A DNA stretch of 64,000 bases, taken from NCBI RefSeq assembly GCF_003610195.1, contig NZ_RAPO01000001.1, forward strand, positions 496,001 to 560,000. The letters are read 5' to 3'. The notes under the pieces were generated by a model. The model had not been told where the DNA came from, made no database searches, and saw only the letters and a list, made by a program, of their open reading frames with translations. A program made the position numbers and the translations under genes. Numbering within the stretch: the stretch's first letter is position 1; the number at the start of each line of letters is the position of its first letter. This DNA comes from Halopiger aswanensis. GTDB taxonomy: Archaea; Halobacteriota; Halobacteria; Halobacteriales; Natrialbaceae. Below are positions 15,160 to 47,891 of the stretch, piece by piece.

Positions 15160-16590
15160 ATGAGTTCCGAACAAGACCACCTCAAAGACACTGACACCGA
15201 AGCGCGGTTCGAGTTCAAGAAAGAACAGAACGCCGCGGTGAAATCCGACAAGGGCCTGACCGAGGAGGTCATCCGCATGATCTCCGAGGACAAGGACGAG
15301 CCCGACTGGATGCTCGAGCGCCGTCTGCGCGCGCTCGAGCAGTACCAGAACATGCCGATGCCGACGGATTGGCCCGGCATGCCCGACCTCTCGGGACTGG
15401 ACGTCGAGGAGATCGTCCCGTACATCCGCCCGGACGTCGACAAGCGCGAAGGCGTCGACGACTGGACGGAGCTGCCCGACGAGATCAAGGACACCTTCGA
15501 CAAGCTCGGCATCCCCGAAGCCGAGAAGAACGCCCTCTCGGGCGTCGGCGCCCAGTACGAGTCGGAGGTCGTCTACCAGAACATGCAGGAGCAGTGGGAG
15601 GAGAAGGGCGTCATCTTCATGAATATGGACCGCGCGGTCCAGGAACACCCCGAGCTCGTCAAGGAGCACTTCATGACGACCTGCGTGCCGCCGAGCGACA
15701 ACAAGTTCGCGGCGCTGCACGGCGCCGTCTGGTCCGGCGGCTCGTTCGTCTACGTCCCCGAGGGCGTCACCGTCGAGATGCCCGTCCAGGCGTACTTCCG
15801 CATGAACTCGGAAGGGATGGGCCAGTTCGAGCACACGCTCATCATCGCCGAGGAAGGCTCCGAGGTCCACTACATCGAGGGCTGTTCCGCGCCCAAGTAC
15901 GGGACCCACAACCTCCACAGCGGCGGCGTGGAAGTCTTCGTCGGCGAGGACGCTCACGTCCAGTACTCGACCGTCCAGAACTGGTCGAAGAACACCTACA
16001 ACCTCAACACCAAGCGCGCCATCGTCGAGTCCGGCGGCACGATGGAGTGGGTCTCCGGTAGCATGGGCTCGAAGGCCACCATGCTCTACCCGTGCTCGAT
16101 CCTCAAGGGTCGCGGCGCGACCGACACCCACATCACCATCGCCTTCGCCGGCGAGGGCCAGGACATCGACACCGGCGCGAAGGTCTACCACAACGCGCCC
16201 GAGACGTCCTCGACCATCGAGTCCAAGTCGATCTCCAAGGACGGCGGCCGCACCAACTACCGCGGTCTCGTCCACATCGCCGACGGCGCCGAGAACTCGA
16301 GCACCGCCGTCGAGTGCGACGCGCTGATGTTCGACAACGAGTCCACGTCGGACACCATGCCGTACATGGAGATCGAGGAGTCGAAGGTCGACGTCGCACA
16401 CGAGGCGACCGTCGGCAAGATCGGCGACGAGGACATCTTCTACCTCCAGTCTCGCGGACTGGACGACGACGACGCCAAGAAGATGATCGTCGCCGGCTTC
16501 ATCGAGCCGATCACGGAGGAACTGCCGATCGAGTACGCGGTCGAACTCAACCGCCTCATCGAACTCGAGATGGAAGGTAGCCTCGGATAA
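15160..16590 (+). CDS. sufB: Fe-S cluster assembly scaffold SufB
   Basis: The 476-residue protein has the SufB beta-helix core with 'HYIEGCSAPKYGTHNLHSGGVEVFVGE'-type sequence (cut here at the family-typical 'EGCSAP' Cys), 'SMGSKATMLYPCSILKG' and the C-terminal 'SRGLDDDDAKKMIVAGFIEP'. It is the cluster-assembling subunit of SufBC2D, where conserved Cys and Glu residues hold the nascent cluster. It follows sufC by 61 bases and is followed by sufD after one base, so the order is C-B-D in one transcript. Length is normal for the family. Confidence 0.95.
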   Translation: MSSEQDHLKDTDTEARFEFKKEQNAAVKSDKGLTEEVIRMISEDKDEPDWMLERRLRALEQYQNMPMPTDWPGMPDLSGLDVEEIVPYIRPDVDKREGVDDWTELPDEIKDTFDKLGIPEAEKNALSGVGAQYESEVVYQNMQEQWEEKGVIFMNMDRAVQEHPELVKEHFMTTCVPPSDNKFAALHGAVWSGGSFVYVPEGVTVEMPVQAYFRMNSEGMGQFEHTLIIAEEGSEVHYIEGCSAPKYGTHNLHSGGVEVFVGEDAHVQYSTVQNWSKNTYNLNTKRAIVESGGTMEWVSGSMGSKATMLYPCSILKGRGATDTHITIAFAGEGQDIDTGAKVYHNAPETSSTIESKSISKDGGRTNYRGLVHIADGAENSSTAVECDALMFDNESTSDTMPYMEIEESKVDVAHEATVGKIGDEDIFYLQSRGLDDDDAKKMIVAGFIEPITEELPIEYAVELNRLIELEMEGSLG

Positions 16591-16591
16591 T

Positions 16592-17806
16592 ATGAGCACG
16601 CAGGTACACGCCAATCTGACGGAGGAACAGGTCCGCGAAATCAGCGGGAACTTAGACGAGCCCGACTGGCTCCTCGAGACCCGCCTCGAGGCCCTCGAGG
16701 CGCTCGAGGCCCTCGACATGCCCGACGTTATCAAGACGCCGGGTCGCGAGTGGACGAACCTCCACGAACTCGACTTCGAGTCGCTCGTGGACCCGCTGAA
16801 CGCCGCGGAGGACAAGGATCAGGTCGGTCCCGACGAGGTCGACGTCCTCCCATGGGCCGAGGCCGTACAGGAGCACGAGGACCTCATCCAGGAGCACTTC
16901 GGCTCGATCGTCGACCCGCAGGAAAACTACCTGACGGCGCTCTCGACGGCGCTGTTTAGCACCGGGACCGTCGTCTACGTCCCCGAGGGCGTCGACGCCG
17001 AGGACGTCACCATCCGGACCGAGCAGAACTCCCGCTCGCTGTTCAACTACACGCTCGTCGTCGCAGAGGAATCGTCCTCCGTGACGATCCTCGAGCGCCA
17101 GTCGACGGGCGCCGAACAGGACGAGCAGTACTACAGCGGCATCGTCGAAGTCGTCGCCGGCGAGAACAGCAACGTCCAGTACGGCAGCCTCCAGAACCTC
17201 TCGGAGGAGGCCTACAACTTCGCGCTCAAGCGCGGCGACGCCGACACGTACGCGACGATCGACTGGATCGAGGTCAACCTCGGCACGCAGCTGACGAAGT
17301 CCGGCGTTTCGACGGAGCTCAACGGCGACTCCGCCGAGACCCAGATCGTCGGCGCCTTCTACGGCCACAACGACCAGCACTTCGACCTCGACGCGAAGGT
17401 CTGGCACCGCGCCGAGCACACCACCGCTGATCTGGTCACCCGCGGCGTCACCGACGACATCGCCCGCTCGGTCTACGAGGGCGTTCAGGACGTCGGCCAA
17501 GATGCGTGGGACACCAGCTCCTACCAGCGCGAGAACACGCTGATGCTCAGCGACGAAAGCGAGGCCGACGCCTCGCCGAAGCTGATCATCAACAACCACG
17601 ACACCGAGGCCAGCCACTCCGCGACGGTCGGCCAGATCGACCGCGAGGACCTGCTGTACATGACCTCCCGCGGCATCGACGAGCGATCCGCGACGAACAT
17701 GCTCGTCCAGGGCTTCTTCGTGCCGGTCCTCGAGGAGATCGCGGTCGACGAACTGCGCGACGACCTCGAGGAACTGATCGCGACCCGACTCCGCCAGCGC
17801 GACTAA
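16592..17806 (+). CDS. sufD: Fe-S cluster assembly protein SufD
   Basis: This 404-residue paralogue of SufB begins one base after the sufB stop. The beta-helix core contains 'LVVAEESSSVTILERQ' and 'GAFYGHNDQHFDLDAKVWH', and the C-terminus has the family pattern 'ATVGQIDREDLLYMTSRGID'. The His in 'YGHNDQHFD' corresponds to the SufD residue that joins SufB at the cluster-binding interface. It completes the SufBC2D complex and is thought to help iron entry. A ferritin-like gene follows 150 bases downstream. Confidence 0.94.
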   Translation: MSTQVHANLTEEQVREISGNLDEPDWLLETRLEALEALEALDMPDVIKTPGREWTNLHELDFESLVDPLNAAEDKDQVGPDEVDVLPWAEAVQEHEDLIQEHFGSIVDPQENYLTALSTALFSTGTVVYVPEGVDAEDVTIRTEQNSRSLFNYTLVVAEESSSVTILERQSTGAEQDEQYYSGIVEVVAGENSNVQYGSLQNLSEEAYNFALKRGDADTYATIDWIEVNLGTQLTKSGVSTELNGDSAETQIVGAFYGHNDQHFDLDAKVWHRAEHTTADLVTRGVTDDIARSVYEGVQDVGQDAWDTSSYQRENTLMLSDESEADASPKLIINNHDTEASHSATVGQIDREDLLYMTSRGIDERSATNMLVQGFFVPVLEEIAVDELRDDLEELIATRLRQRD

Positions 17807-17956: not shown

Positions 17957-18451
17957 ATGAGTCTGGGACAGCGCGTCTCGAACGACCACCAGCTTGCGCG
18001 ACTCCTGCAGATCGGGGTCGTGTTAGAGGAGGTCGTCGAGTCTCGCGCCGCCCACCACCTCGAGTCTCTGCCGGCGGACGAACGGGCGGAGGTCGATGAG
18101 GCGGTGGAGGAGTTGCTCGTAGAGGCCAGCGAGGAGTCGGCCGAGCACCGCGAGCGACTCGAGGCGCTGATCGACGATCTCGACGCCGAGACGGTGGCGT
18201 ACGAGGAAATCAATGCCCTGGTCGACGCCCAGTACGGGCCGCCGGAGGACACCGACGGCGTCCTCTACGACCAACTGGCCAACGAGGAGACCGCCTACAA
18301 GTTCTACGACGACCTGATCGACGCGATCGAAGCCGCCGACGGCGAGTTTGCGATCGATCGCGATCGGCTGCTCGAGACGCTGTACGACATCCGCGAGGAG
18401 GAGAAGGAAGGCGTCGAAGAGGTCGCGGAAATCATGGAGCACAGAGCATGA
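17957..18451 (+). CDS. Ferritin-like (rubrerythrin-type) four-helix protein
   Basis: The 164-residue all-helical acidic protein has Glu/His-rich helices ('VVLEEVVESRAAHHLESL', 'EASEESAEHRERLEAL', 'NEETAYKFYDDLIDAIE', 'EEEKEGVEEVAEIMEH') spaced as in ferritin-like domains, where such residues form a di-iron site. Exact ligands cannot be assigned by eye. Such proteins handle iron or peroxide. It follows the suf operon and precedes a DtxR-type regulator gene, a context that supports an iron role. Its stop overlaps the start of a 34-codon ORF (ATGA at 18448-18451), suggesting continued translation. Confidence 0.7.
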   Translation: MSLGQRVSNDHQLARLLQIGVVLEEVVESRAAHHLESLPADERAEVDEAVEELLVEASEESAEHRERLEALIDDLDAETVAYEEINALVDAQYGPPEDTDGVLYDQLANEETAYKFYDDLIDAIEAADGEFAIDRDRLLETLYDIREEEKEGVEEVAEIMEHRA

Positions 18452-18552
18452 TCGGGGCGACCGAGATCGCCGCCGCGGGTGCGGCATCGACATCGGTTTC
18501 GACCCGAGCACCGACGACCGACAACACCAACGGCAACGGAGGGACGCGATGA
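18448..18552 (+). CDS. 34-codon linker ORF between ferritin-like and DtxR genes
   Basis: The ATG at 18448 overlaps the previous stop (ATGA), and the TGA at 18550-18552 overlaps the next ATG at 18549 (ATGA again). The product is Ala/Thr/Asn-rich ('MIGATEIAAAGAAST...') with no recognisable fold and no membrane span. It could be a translational relay that delivers ribosomes to the downstream regulator rather than a functional protein. Only the double overlap supports it. Confidence 0.35.
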   Translation: MIGATEIAAAGAASTSVSTRAPTTDNTNGNGGTR

Positions 18553-18782
18553 ACACCGCAGATCAGTATCTCAAGGCGATTTACCTCGCACAACGGATGG
18601 AAGACGGACCGGCGTCGACGGGGACGCTCGCGGATCTCCTCGAGGTGAGCCCGGCGAGCGTCAACGAGATGATCGGCAAACTCGAGGAGCGCGAGCTCGT
18701 CGGGGACGGTCTTCTCCTCCTCGCCGTTTTCGCCGAGTTCGGCCCCGCTTGCGGGCTCGAGATTGCTGGGAAGCGTTACTGA
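18549..18782 (+). pseudogene. DtxR/SirR-family metal-dependent regulator, truncated after the DNA-binding helix
   Basis: The first ~50 residues, 'MNTADQYLKAIYLAQRMEDG' through 'VSPASVNEMIGKLEERELV', match the start of DtxR/MntR/SirR-type metal-dependent repressors, including the recognition helix. From about base 18702 the frame reads 'GDGLLLLAVFAEFGP...', unrelated to the family, and stops at 77 residues. Full-length relatives are usually over 130 residues and in haloarchaea about 220. The rest of the winged helix, the metal-binding dimerisation domain and the SH3-like domain are missing. The 3' end overlaps a gene on the other strand that is also cut at this point, so one deletion probably removed both ends. 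Confidence 0.75.
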
Positions 18783-20084: not shown

Positions 20085-20245
20085 ACTCGCGGATTCGGCG
20101 GGCCGATCCCTTACGTGTTTTCGTTTCGCCACGGTGTCGCTGGAACTGACTTTCGATCGCGTTTCGGCGCTGGGATGACCGCGATAGCTGTCCGGTTCGA
20201 GCCGCGAACCACGGCGGTTATGTCGCGGTGTGCCCAACGGTCGGT

Positions 20246-20686
20246 ATGCACCGGCGCGCCTACCTCGCCGCCGTCGGAACCGCCGTGTCGGTCAGCCTAG
20301 CCGGCTGCTCGACCGTCATGAGCGCCTTCAGCGACGACGAACTCTGCGCGGGCGAGGACTGCACTATCGGCATGACCCGCAACTCCTTCGTCCCCGAGGA
20401 GTACGAGGCGACCGTCGGCGAAACCGTCGTCTGGAAGAACACGAGCGGCGCCGACCACACGATCACGGCCCGCGAAGGGAGCCTGCCCGAGGGCGCCGAG
20501 TACTTCGCCACCGGCGGCTTCGAGGACGAACAAACGGCCGTCGACGCCTGGCACGACCACCGCGGCGGCCGGCTCGGCCCTCGAGAGACGTTCGAGCACA
20601 CCTTCGAGGTCCCCGGCACCTACACCTACTTCTGCGAACCCCACATTCGGGCGGGAATGGCCGGGACGATCGTCGTCACCGAGTAA
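20246..20686 (+). CDS. Halocyanin-like blue copper lipoprotein
   Basis: The 146-residue precursor has a signal peptide with an Arg pair and the lipobox 'LAGC' (Cys21). The mature part is a cupredoxin domain with copper ligands recognisable as His71 ('ADHTI'), Cys130 and His133 ('FCEPH') and Met138 ('AGMAG'). It would be a membrane-anchored outer-surface electron carrier like halocyanin. Two extra Cys at 34 and 39 ('ELCAGEDC') may form a disulfide. The ATG at 20246 was chosen because the signal starts there. A second cupredoxin gene lies at 24.9 kb. Confidence 0.88.
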
Positions 20687-24762: not shown

Positions 24763-24847
24763 TACCGAACGTCGGAACTTGGACGTATTTGGATGCGGAT
24801 ATCGTCGGAACTTGCGTTCGGTTGGAATTCCCGAAAGGTATTTCAAT

Positions 24848-24865
24848 TTTTAGGCCAGCCTAAAA
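24848..24865. promoter_or_regulatory. DtxR/SirR-type palindromic operator ahead of the DUF5059-halocyanin gene
   Basis: TTTTAGGCCAGCCTAAAA has perfect 8-base arms (TTTTAGGC/GCCTAAAA) around a 2-base centre. It resembles the TTAGG...CCTAA operators recognised by DtxR-family metalloregulators. It ends 3 bases before the ATG at 24869, so it would span the start of a leaderless transcript, a position where bound protein blocks transcription. This is the only clear copy I found in the window. Confidence 0.65.
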
Positions 24866-24868
24866 GAT

Positions 24869-26410
24869 ATGGCAACGAGACGGAAGCTACTGGCGTTGAG
24901 CGCAGCAGTCGCAGGAACGGCCGTCGCCGGCTGTACGGGCGGCTCGGACGAGACGGGAACGAACGACTCCGATTCGGGCGACGACGACTCGAACAGCAGC
25001 GATTCGAGCGGCAGCGAAGAGGACGAAATGGCCGCCGGTCCGGAACTCGGGGTCGCGGCCGAGTGGAACGCCATCCGCGCCCGAACTGCCGACGCGCTCG
25101 CGCTCGGCATCGCCGAGGAGTTCGAGGTCGGCGGGTCGGTAGTAGGCGACACGCTCGCTCGATTCGAAGCCGCGACCGCTGAATGGGGCGCCCACGAGCA
25201 ACTCGAGGAGACGGATCACGAGTTCTACGAGGAATTCGAGGAGGCCGTCGAGGAACTTCGCCTCGAGGGGCTCGACGAGGGCGACCTCGAACGGGTCCGA
25301 ACGGAGGTCGGGCTCGCCGACGAACAGCTGCAGGCGGCCCAGCGCGCCCGCCTCGAGGAGGCGAACGCGCTCGCGCTCGAGATGGCGCTGTTCGGCGCTC
25401 GCGTCGCGGATATCGACGTGCTCGCGACCGCCGGCCACTTCGGGGCTGCCGAGACGCTCGCCGAGGAGACGGACGAGCGCTGGGAGTCCGCGACCGTCCA
25501 CGACGAACTCAGCGGAACGAACGGCGACCTGTACGCGGCCTTCGAGGGCGAACTGCCGACGTTGGCGGAGGCAGCGAGCGACGAGAACGGCGATGACGTC
25601 GCGTCCGCGGCGGACGCCGCGCTCACGGCTGCCGTCGACGCGGCGTACGAACTCGCGGCCGACGACGCCGCCGCCCACGCGGCCCAACTGGCGACCATGC
25701 AGGCCCGCGCCTGGGACGCCGCCGTCCTCAACGATCTCGAGGGCGTCGACGCCGAAGCGGCCGCAGACGTGATGCGCGATACCTTCGGGCGGTTCGAGAG
25801 CGCTCGCTCGCACGAGGCGCTCGAGGAAGCCGACCACGCCACCTACGAAGCCTTCGAGAGCGAACTCGAGGCCTACATCGAAGCGCTCGCGGCCGGCGAA
25901 GGCGTCGACGAGGCGGCCAGCAACTTCGCCGCGGCCGCACAGCGGGCGCAGTTCGCCGTCGCCGGCGCGCTCGAGGAGGCGCCGGGCAAGGGCGGCGAGC
26001 ACGGACACGAACATGAGGACGGCCACGGCCATCAGGAGGACCTCGAGGGCGGCCCGAACGTCGTCGACGGGGTGCCCGAGGACGCCGATCACGTCGTCGA
26101 GATGCACGCCGTGTCCTTCGAGCCGGCGGAGATCACGATCTCTGCGGGCGACACCGTCGCCTGGGAGTTCGTCGAGGGCGAACCCCACTCCGTCACGGCC
26201 TACGAGGACGACATCCCCGAGGACGCCGAGTACTGGGCGTCCGGCGACTTCGAGAGCGAGGACGCCGCCCGCGAGGGGTGGGACGACGGCGTCGGAGCGG
26301 TCGTAGACGGCCAGTCCTACGTCCGAACCTTCGAGACCGTCGGCGAGCACGAGTACGTCTGTATCCCCCACGAAGCGGCCGGGATGACGGGAACGATCGT
26401 CGTCGAGTAA
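24869..26410 (+). CDS. DUF5059-type lipoprotein with C-terminal halocyanin (cupredoxin) domain
   Basis: The 513-residue precursor starts with a signal ending in the lipobox 'VAGC' (Cys22), then a Ser/Asp linker, a long helical Ala/Glu region (about 60-375) with two related halves ('LGIAEEFEVGGSVVGDTLARF' trimmed to its 20-residue core, and 'LFGARVADIDVLATAGHFGA'), a His-rich stretch ('GEHGHEHEDGHGHQED'), and a C-terminal cupredoxin domain with 'EPHSVTA' and 'CIPHEAAGM' copper ligands. The helical part matches haloarchaeal DUF5059. It would be anchored outside the cell and bind copper, possibly storing or passing metal through the His-rich linker. The DtxR-type palindrome before it suggests metal control. 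Confidence 0.82.
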   Translation: MATRRKLLALSAAVAGTAVAGCTGGSDETGTNDSDSGDDDSNSSDSSGSEEDEMAAGPELGVAAEWNAIRARTADALALGIAEEFEVGGSVVGDTLARFEAATAEWGAHEQLEETDHEFYEEFEEAVEELRLEGLDEGDLERVRTEVGLADEQLQAAQRARLEEANALALEMALFGARVADIDVLATAGHFGAAETLAEETDERWESATVHDELSGTNGDLYAAFEGELPTLAEAASDENGDDVASAADAALTAAVDAAYELAADDAAAHAAQLATMQARAWDAAVLNDLEGVDAEAAADVMRDTFGRFESARSHEALEEADHATYEAFESELEAYIEALAAGEGVDEAASNFAAAAQRAQFAVAGALEEAPGKGGEHGHEHEDGHGHQEDLEGGPNVVDGVPEDADHVVEMHAVSFEPAEITISAGDTVAWEFVEGEPHSVTAYEDDIPEDAEYWASGDFESEDAAREGWDDGVGAVVDGQSYVRTFETVGEHEYVCIPHEAAGMTGTIVVE

Positions 26411-47399: not shown

Positions 47400-47891
47400 A
47401 TGTCGAGCGACCTCGACGACGTCGACCGGGGGATCCTCTTTCTCCTGCAGGACGATGCCAGAAACACGACCGCGATCGAGATGGCCGAACGACTCGACGT
47501 CTCGCCCAGCACCGTCCGAAACCGAATCGAACGGCTCGAGGAGACCGGCGTCCTCACCGGCTACCACCCGCAGATCGACTACACCCGACTCGATATTCCG
47601 CTGTTGACTACGTTCGTCGTGACAGCGGCCCCGACGCAGCGACACGAGGCCGTCGAGGCGCTGCTCGAGGTCGAGGGGGTCCTCGAGGTCCAGGAGTTGC
47701 TCGGCGGCCGGGAGAACATCCACGTCAAGGTCCTCGCGCGGGACAACTGCCACCTCTCGGAAATCACGCAGTCGATCCACGAGTTAGACGTCGAGATCGA
47801 GCGGACCGAAATCGCGAAACAGCGGCGAACGGGGTCCCCGTCGATCTTCGAAACTGCGCTCGAGTCGGTTCGTCGCGATGGGGACAACTGA
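47400..47891 (+). CDS. Lrp/AsnC-family transcriptional regulator
   Basis: The 163-residue protein has an N-terminal helix-turn-helix ('RNTTAIEMAERLDVSPSTVR', 22-41) and a RAM ligand domain ('PLLTTFVVTAAPTQRHEAVE', 'VQELLGGRENIHVKVLARDN'). Lrp-family proteins form octamers and respond to amino acids or small metabolites. The ATG at 47400 is 15 bases after a TATA-like box. No adjacent operon is obvious, so its target cannot be named. The basic tail ('KQRRTGSPSIFETALESVRR') may contact DNA. Confidence 0.9.
   Translation: MSSDLDDVDRGILFLLQDDARNTTAIEMAERLDVSPSTVRNRIERLEETGVLTGYHPQIDYTRLDIPLLTTFVVTAAPTQRHEAVEALLEVEGVLEVQELLGGRENIHVKVLARDNCHLSEITQSIHELDVEIERTEIAKQRRTGSPSIFETALESVRRDGDN

Follow-up and report, generated by a model that had tools for sequence, protein, structure and literature searches.

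The palindrome that stands just before the ATG at which a gene for a DUF5059-cupredoxin lipoprotein begins, in a stretch of 64,000 nucleotides of haloarchaeal DNA (the window, G000:C1:496001-560000 of a 4.87-Mb genome), is most probably an operator of the known haloarchaeal DtxR-family iron regulon, and the gene would be repressed when iron suffices. An earlier note had proposed, from the window alone, that a DtxR-type operator controls this gene, and the claim gains support from the enrichment of the motif in the genome, from the genes beside its other copies and from its conservation. The reading as a DtxR-family iron operator draws on sequence, enrichment, neighbouring genes, conservation and spacing, together with published co-variation in Haloferax; from these we infer occlusion of the promoter, iron as the signal in this organism, a leaderless start and the binding of a DtxR protein. 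The elements concerned are as follows.

24830-24846, + strand: BRE-like CCCGAAA (24830-24836) and TATA-like GGTATTTCAA (24837-24846), recognised in the sequence and with a counterpart in the consensus of the relatives; function putative
24848-24865, no strand assigned: predicted DtxR-type operator TTTTAGGCCAGCCTAAAA, an 8-2-8 inverted repeat, from the palindrome, the genome enrichment and the conserved position
24869-26410, + strand: gene for the DUF5059-cupredoxin lipoprotein, 513 aa, from the open reading frame and Pfam

Read on the + strand, TTTTAGGCCAGCCTAAAA consists of arms of 8 bases around the 2-base centre CA, and a spacer of 3 bases (24866-24868) separates it from the ATG at 24869, just as the earlier note had described it. 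The BRE/TATA-like element lies directly upstream of the palindrome, and the spacing of its TATA-like part to the ATG suggests that the message is leaderless. The case made by the window is modest: TTTTAGGNNNNCCTAAAA has one match there with at most 3 mismatches (the second-best site has 4), and 11 of 100 shuffles also contain at least one such match, with a shuffle mean of 0.12. Palindromy by itself is unremarkable, since three perfect 8-2-8 inverted repeats occur within the window. The evidential weight of TTTTAGGCCAGCCTAAAA comes from the count in the whole genome and from its conservation before related genes.

With at most 2 mismatches, TTTTAGGNNNNCCTAAAA occurs at 35 sites of the genome, against 1 for the reversed control pattern. 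With at most 1 mismatch it is present in 116 of 116 Halobacteria genomes and the control pattern in 12 of 116; one genome (G013) is the only one where the control outnumbers the motif (5 vs 3). Twelve of the 35 sites, that of the window included, end within 5 bp of a plausible start codon, and 24 within 50 bp. The surroundings of the other 34 sites were taken and their reading frames called by a simple script, the 35 sites were grouped into 28 units, for some of which the gene assignment is ambiguous, and Pfam was run on 30 chosen neighbour genes. Lipoproteins of Peripla_BP_2, the family of Fe3+-siderophore binding proteins, lie downstream of 11 of the 28 units and FecCD permeases downstream of two; an SBP_bac_6 protein, an ABC ATPase with TOBE_2, a ZIP transporter and a ScdA_N-hemerythrin protein were found for one unit each. 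Three sites, taken as one group, lie to either side of a DtxR gene that adjoins a ferritin-like (Dps-type) gene. An iron link is not evident for the units with a family-2 glycosyltransferase, an RGP protein, LPG_synthase_TM, DUF7551/7552, aldehyde dehydrogenase/HTH_10 or methyltransferase/DUF7090, nor for two sites that lie around a cupin gene and a Mur-ligase/pterin-binding gene; a further site lacks a clear gene. The earlier note had proposed listing the genes downstream of such sites; the recognisable targets turn out to be mostly genes of iron or metal uptake, and, judged by these neighbours, the sites together make up a predicted iron-uptake regulon with some unexplained members. Four sites, two of them perfect, lie within about 10 kb in one locus (L035, G000:C1:1388500-1404500), where the genes that follow them encode a glycosyltransferase, an SBP_bac_6 protein and proteins of the RGP family and of LPG_synthase_TM, an unexplained connection of the iron operator with the envelope or with glycans.

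A lack of the motif before orthologous genes had been set beforehand as a possible refutation of the operator; conservation held in two sets of genes. The family search gave some match in 81 of 81 genomes, with 15 full DUF5059 genes among the matches listed, where the remaining genomes contributed the cupredoxin part only. Eight of the 15 are short forms of about 500 aa, that of the window included, and seven are long forms of about 825 aa; in the short form a central part of the Pfam profile is missing, positions 2-234 and 545-619 of 619 being those that the gene of the window matches. Before all 15 genes (the window's own counted) the operator ends 2-3 bases ahead of the ATG and has 0-2 mismatches. 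A scan of named genomes yielded 52 DUF5059 loci from many halobacterial genera, at which the start was chosen by a start codon, an arginine and a lipobox, blind to the operator site, and a proximal site was defined as one with at most 3 mismatches that ends 1-6 bases before the start. Such a site was found at 51 of the 52 loci versus 2 of 416 control windows; the sole exception (L131) is a truncated gene of 300 aa, with 5 mismatches in its best proximal site. Several genomes are common to both sets (L083/L052 and L087/L081 among others), which are therefore not independent. The exceptional locus belongs to Natrinema gelatinilyticum, in which gene and operator may be decaying together. DUF5059 itself was found in 26 of 97 Halobacteria and, among 14 well-known control genomes, in Haloferax volcanii only. 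No operon partner conserved within 3 kb of the DUF5059 gene was found across the 52 loci, and the two largest clusters of neighbours (10/52 and 8/52 loci) look like shared synteny. At three loci (L093, L099, L110) siderophore ABC transport-like genes were noticed by eye near the DUF5059 gene.

The promoters of the relatives share a further trait. In 44 of the 51 loci there is a second operator 33-37 bp upstream, 36 bp being the commonest distance, with at most 3 mismatches in 43 and with 4 in one, and the paired operators flank BRE/TATA from both sides; the seven loci where it is missing comprise three short and four long forms. The consensus between the paired operators of the long forms, aAAaatCgaa.gg.tTtt, resembles BRE and TATA. 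Near the 8 short forms of the family set every candidate second site has 5 mismatches or more, and the window's short-form gene accordingly has one operator. Tandem pairs of sites 34-36 bp apart occur six times elsewhere in the window's genome. In bacteria, the DtxR/IdeR iron box is a TTAGG...CCTAA palindrome recognised by a family of metal-dependent repressors. The haloarchaeal operator is like it in that palindrome and unlike it in its setting, an archaeal BRE/TATA promoter where two copies, 33-37 bp apart, are frequent.

From this geometry a simple scheme of control may be drawn. When iron is sufficient, a metal-loaded DtxR-family dimer would cover the 18 bp between TATA box and start codon, and the bound dimer would keep the transcription complex from assembling or from escaping. 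Under iron shortage the operator would be vacated, and the DUF5059-cupredoxin lipoprotein would be made along with the siderophore-uptake proteins. In most relatives the second operator abuts the BRE on its far side and two dimers would bracket BRE/TATA, while the short forms, that of the window among them, would use the start-proximal operator only. Paired operators around BRE/TATA, together with the natural one-operator variants, offer a clean system for the block of a TBP/TFB promoter by an archaeal repressor.

Regulons of this kind are known from haloarchaea. As cited in PMC11349517, the DtxR-family iron regulon comprises the ferR signal (Leyn and Rodionov 2015), Idr1/Idr2 of Halobacterium and TroR/Idr/SirR of Haloferax, and the same source has all fhu operons in Haloferax under the ferR regulon signal, with Idr, SirR and TroR as named regulators. 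The sites described here resemble that system in lying before siderophore-uptake (fhu-type) genes and in pointing to DtxR-family regulators, the likeness being one of target genes and regulator family. Among the top ten up-regulated genes of an endA CRISPRi strain, PMC7714728 gives the DUF5059 gene HVO_1228 at log2 +4.2, and most of those ten are siderophore or Fe(III)-transport genes. The table in the Cas1 section of PMC9051519, where HVO_1228 is named hcpE, puts it at -2.92, in a list that also names iucA and an Fe(III) substrate-binding protein. In these two lists, the shifts of HVO_1228 are co-variation with siderophore genes and not iron tests. For the proteome of iron-starved Haloferax (PMC11349517), the table of changes of at least 10-fold does not list HVO_1228, and no DUF5059 or halocyanin gene stands in the 14 rows that PMC11218638 gives to iron-uptake genes repressed under denitrification. 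The open literature searched, with PMC6267482 and the papers named here in it but not the primary papers on the motif, gave no statement placing this gene in the iron regulon; a DUF5059 protein appears under the name hcpG in PMC9240420. The DUF5059-cupredoxin gene would join a known kind of regulon, and the target protein is little explored.

An operator of DtxR type might also answer to another metal, either manganese or, by way of the cupredoxin, copper, the likeness of the motif at the iron genes then reflecting paralogous DtxR proteins that recognise similar sites. The genome does contain several DtxR-family genes, one unit precedes a ZIP transporter and the target carries a copper domain, yet most of the recognisable neighbours are Fe3+-siderophore uptake genes, the published co-variation in the two Haloferax lists is with siderophore genes, and a site with at most 3 mismatches occurs at none of 15 loci of other cupredoxins (49,737 bp); we therefore consider another signal improbable. 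Upstream of the halocyanin gene 20243-20683 in the window there is no site better than 7 mismatches. A regulon devoted to copper was rejected because the 15 other-cupredoxin loci are without the operator, which by this comparison is tied to DUF5059 and not to copper domains as such. The suggestion that a copper-binding surface protein is under metal-dependent control has consequently come through in part: genome enrichment and conservation support the DtxR-type operator, whereas the copper theme finds no echo in the other cupredoxin loci or before the halocyanin gene, and those co-regulated genes that can be recognised serve mainly the uptake of iron or metal.

Alternatively, the motif could serve an activator, or be a promoter element of a general kind. 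Archaeal activators can act directly upstream of the BRE, which is where most relatives carry the second copy. However, the best-conserved copy is the one between TATA and start codon (51/52), where a bound protein is expected to block, and the motif has no more than a few dozen sites per genome; both versions are very unlikely. As for a chance palindrome without function, the three perfect inverted repeats of the window and the 3-mismatch matches in 11 of 100 shuffles speak for it, but sequence and place are conserved at 51 of 52 named loci versus 2 of 416 control windows and the genome has 35 sites versus 1 control, which leaves it next to no credit. Under the preferred reading, an operator of the iron regulon, a copper-domain protein has apparently been recruited to the iron response, and the switch that this surface protein seems to share with iron-scavenging genes suggests that it helps to gather iron, not to manage copper. 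If this is true, comparative evidence from many halobacterial genera would place a protein annotated as halocyanin in the iron response and no longer in copper or respiratory electron transfer.

Which protein might bind the operator was approached through PF01325. The earlier note held the sole DtxR-like gene of the window to be truncated.

18549-18782, + strand: truncated DtxR-family gene, with the HTH part at 18549-18701 and unrelated residues from there to the stop, from the PF01325 search and the comparison with a sister genome

This gene is indeed cut short, but it is not clearly the sole one, as a borderline PF01325 match (25.7 bits, 26 with neighbours) also lies at 47445-47555 in an open frame of 178 aa. 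The sister genome (G023) has a copy of 144 aa that is 96% identical over 51 residues, and the DNA similarity to it ends at about 18702; the intact copy and this breakpoint make a rearrangement or deletion in the window's genome the likely cause of the truncation. The corresponding gene of two further genomes (G021 and G037) is a match of 39-41%, and matches of like score occur in most of 97 genomes. Directly before the truncated gene stand two genes of SufB/SufD type and a short acidic gene that may be ferritin-like, all assigned by eye (15160-17806, 17957-18451).

That a regulator from elsewhere in the genome would be needed agrees with strong PF01325 matches outside the window, at C2:133407, C5:118116 and C2:1209791. 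The first (229 aa) has, by eye, histidines and acidic residues at the metal-binding places of DtxR/MntR, and that at C5:118116 is a shorter DtxR-family gene. The gene at C2:1209557-1209967 lies beside a Dps-type gene and by eye is without obvious metal ligands. Strong matches to this Dps-linked DtxR (E up to 4.3e-32) occur in 31 of 97 genomes, and it is present in just 17 of the 26 genomes with DUF5059, so it was ruled out as the only regulator. The operator is found near 22 of 30 Dps-linked DtxR loci, a raw count free of control windows; 15 of the 22 have a site within 330 bp upstream (at most 3 mismatches) and 7 more have one only 300-1000 bp past the start (at most 2 mismatches).

The earlier note had described the gene product as a DUF5059/halocyanin-type lipoprotein with a His-rich linker, and these parts are all present. 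Pfam assigns DUF5059 (PF16502, E 5.7e-79, two stretches) and a C-terminal Copper-bind domain (PF00127, E 5.3e-15).

24869-24937, + strand: twin-arginine-like and lipobox start MATRRKLLALSAAVAGTAVAGCT, signal type judged by eye
25040-25960, + strand: DUF5059 helical part, residues 58-364, three predicted four-helix bundles (AlphaFold2, alignment)
25994-26035, + strand: His-rich linker, about residues 376-389, poorly conserved and absent from most relatives (alignment)
26051-26407, + strand: cupredoxin domain, residues 395-513, with candidate type-1 copper ligands H440, C498, H501 and M506 (Pfam, structure, alignment)

R4, R5 and C22 of the start are invariant in 42 aligned proteins. The linker, poorly conserved in the same alignment, was rejected as the key metal site. 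Modelled alone, the helical part folds in AlphaFold2 into bundles of residues 58-161, 164-262 and 266-364 (mean pLDDT 97.5). All 42 proteins share E100, E105, H109, E110, E113, Y120 and E124, and the signature repeats at 309-330, where E310, H315, Y326 and E330 are found in 40 of 42, the other two having a gap or X. Three predicted four-helix bundles with invariant His and Glu make an iron-handling surface protein plausible. Searches with the helical part gave no significant sequence match in the PDB (best E 0.54) and no Foldseek match at E ≤0.001 (best E 0.27). Its VIA-align matches (PsbQ, vinculin, SMBP, cytochrome c', imelysin; best Z 12.0) are generic helical bundles, and kinship based on them was set aside.

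EfeO, a component of the EfeUOB iron uptake system, joins a cupredoxin to an M75/imelysin domain. An exported helical domain with invariant His/Glu, a cupredoxin and an iron regulon invite comparison with it, for both are exported proteins in which a cupredoxin is joined to a helical domain with His/Glu and which are linked to iron. The domain order is the reverse of that in EfeO, and no M75 domain was found in the window protein, Pfam at E ≤0.001 giving DUF5059 and Copper-bind only. Imelysin 3n8u_A superposes on the helical part with Z 9.5 (rmsd 2.5, 107 aligned) amid unrelated helical bundles of Z 8-12. We offer, as a tentative and rather doubtful proposal, that the DUF5059-cupredoxin lipoproteins are EfeO-like, though not of the EfeO family, and serve at the surface in iron capture or in a change of its redox state: the invariant Glu/His cluster of the tandem bundles would hold the iron, and the type-1 copper domain would carry the electron before siderophore or ABC uptake, with expression gated by two DtxR dimers that bracket BRE/TATA, or by one in the short-form lineage.

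Halocyanins, the small blue copper proteins of haloarchaea, share with this protein the lipoprotein start and the plastocyanin-type domain; unlike them, it carries the long helical DUF5059 part ahead of the copper domain and has the operator, which other cupredoxin loci are without (15/15). The AlphaFold2 model of the cupredoxin part has the plastocyanin fold (against 2plt Z 15.0, rmsd 1.1, 91 aligned), and the candidate copper ligands are kept in most of the 42 proteins (H440 40/42, C498 41/42, H501 40/42, M506 38/42). In the 8 short forms (alignment A2, L046-L053) the axial ligand is Met in 2, His in 4 and Gln in 2; where Met is missing, HEFCC replaces HEYVC, and the redox potential may differ.
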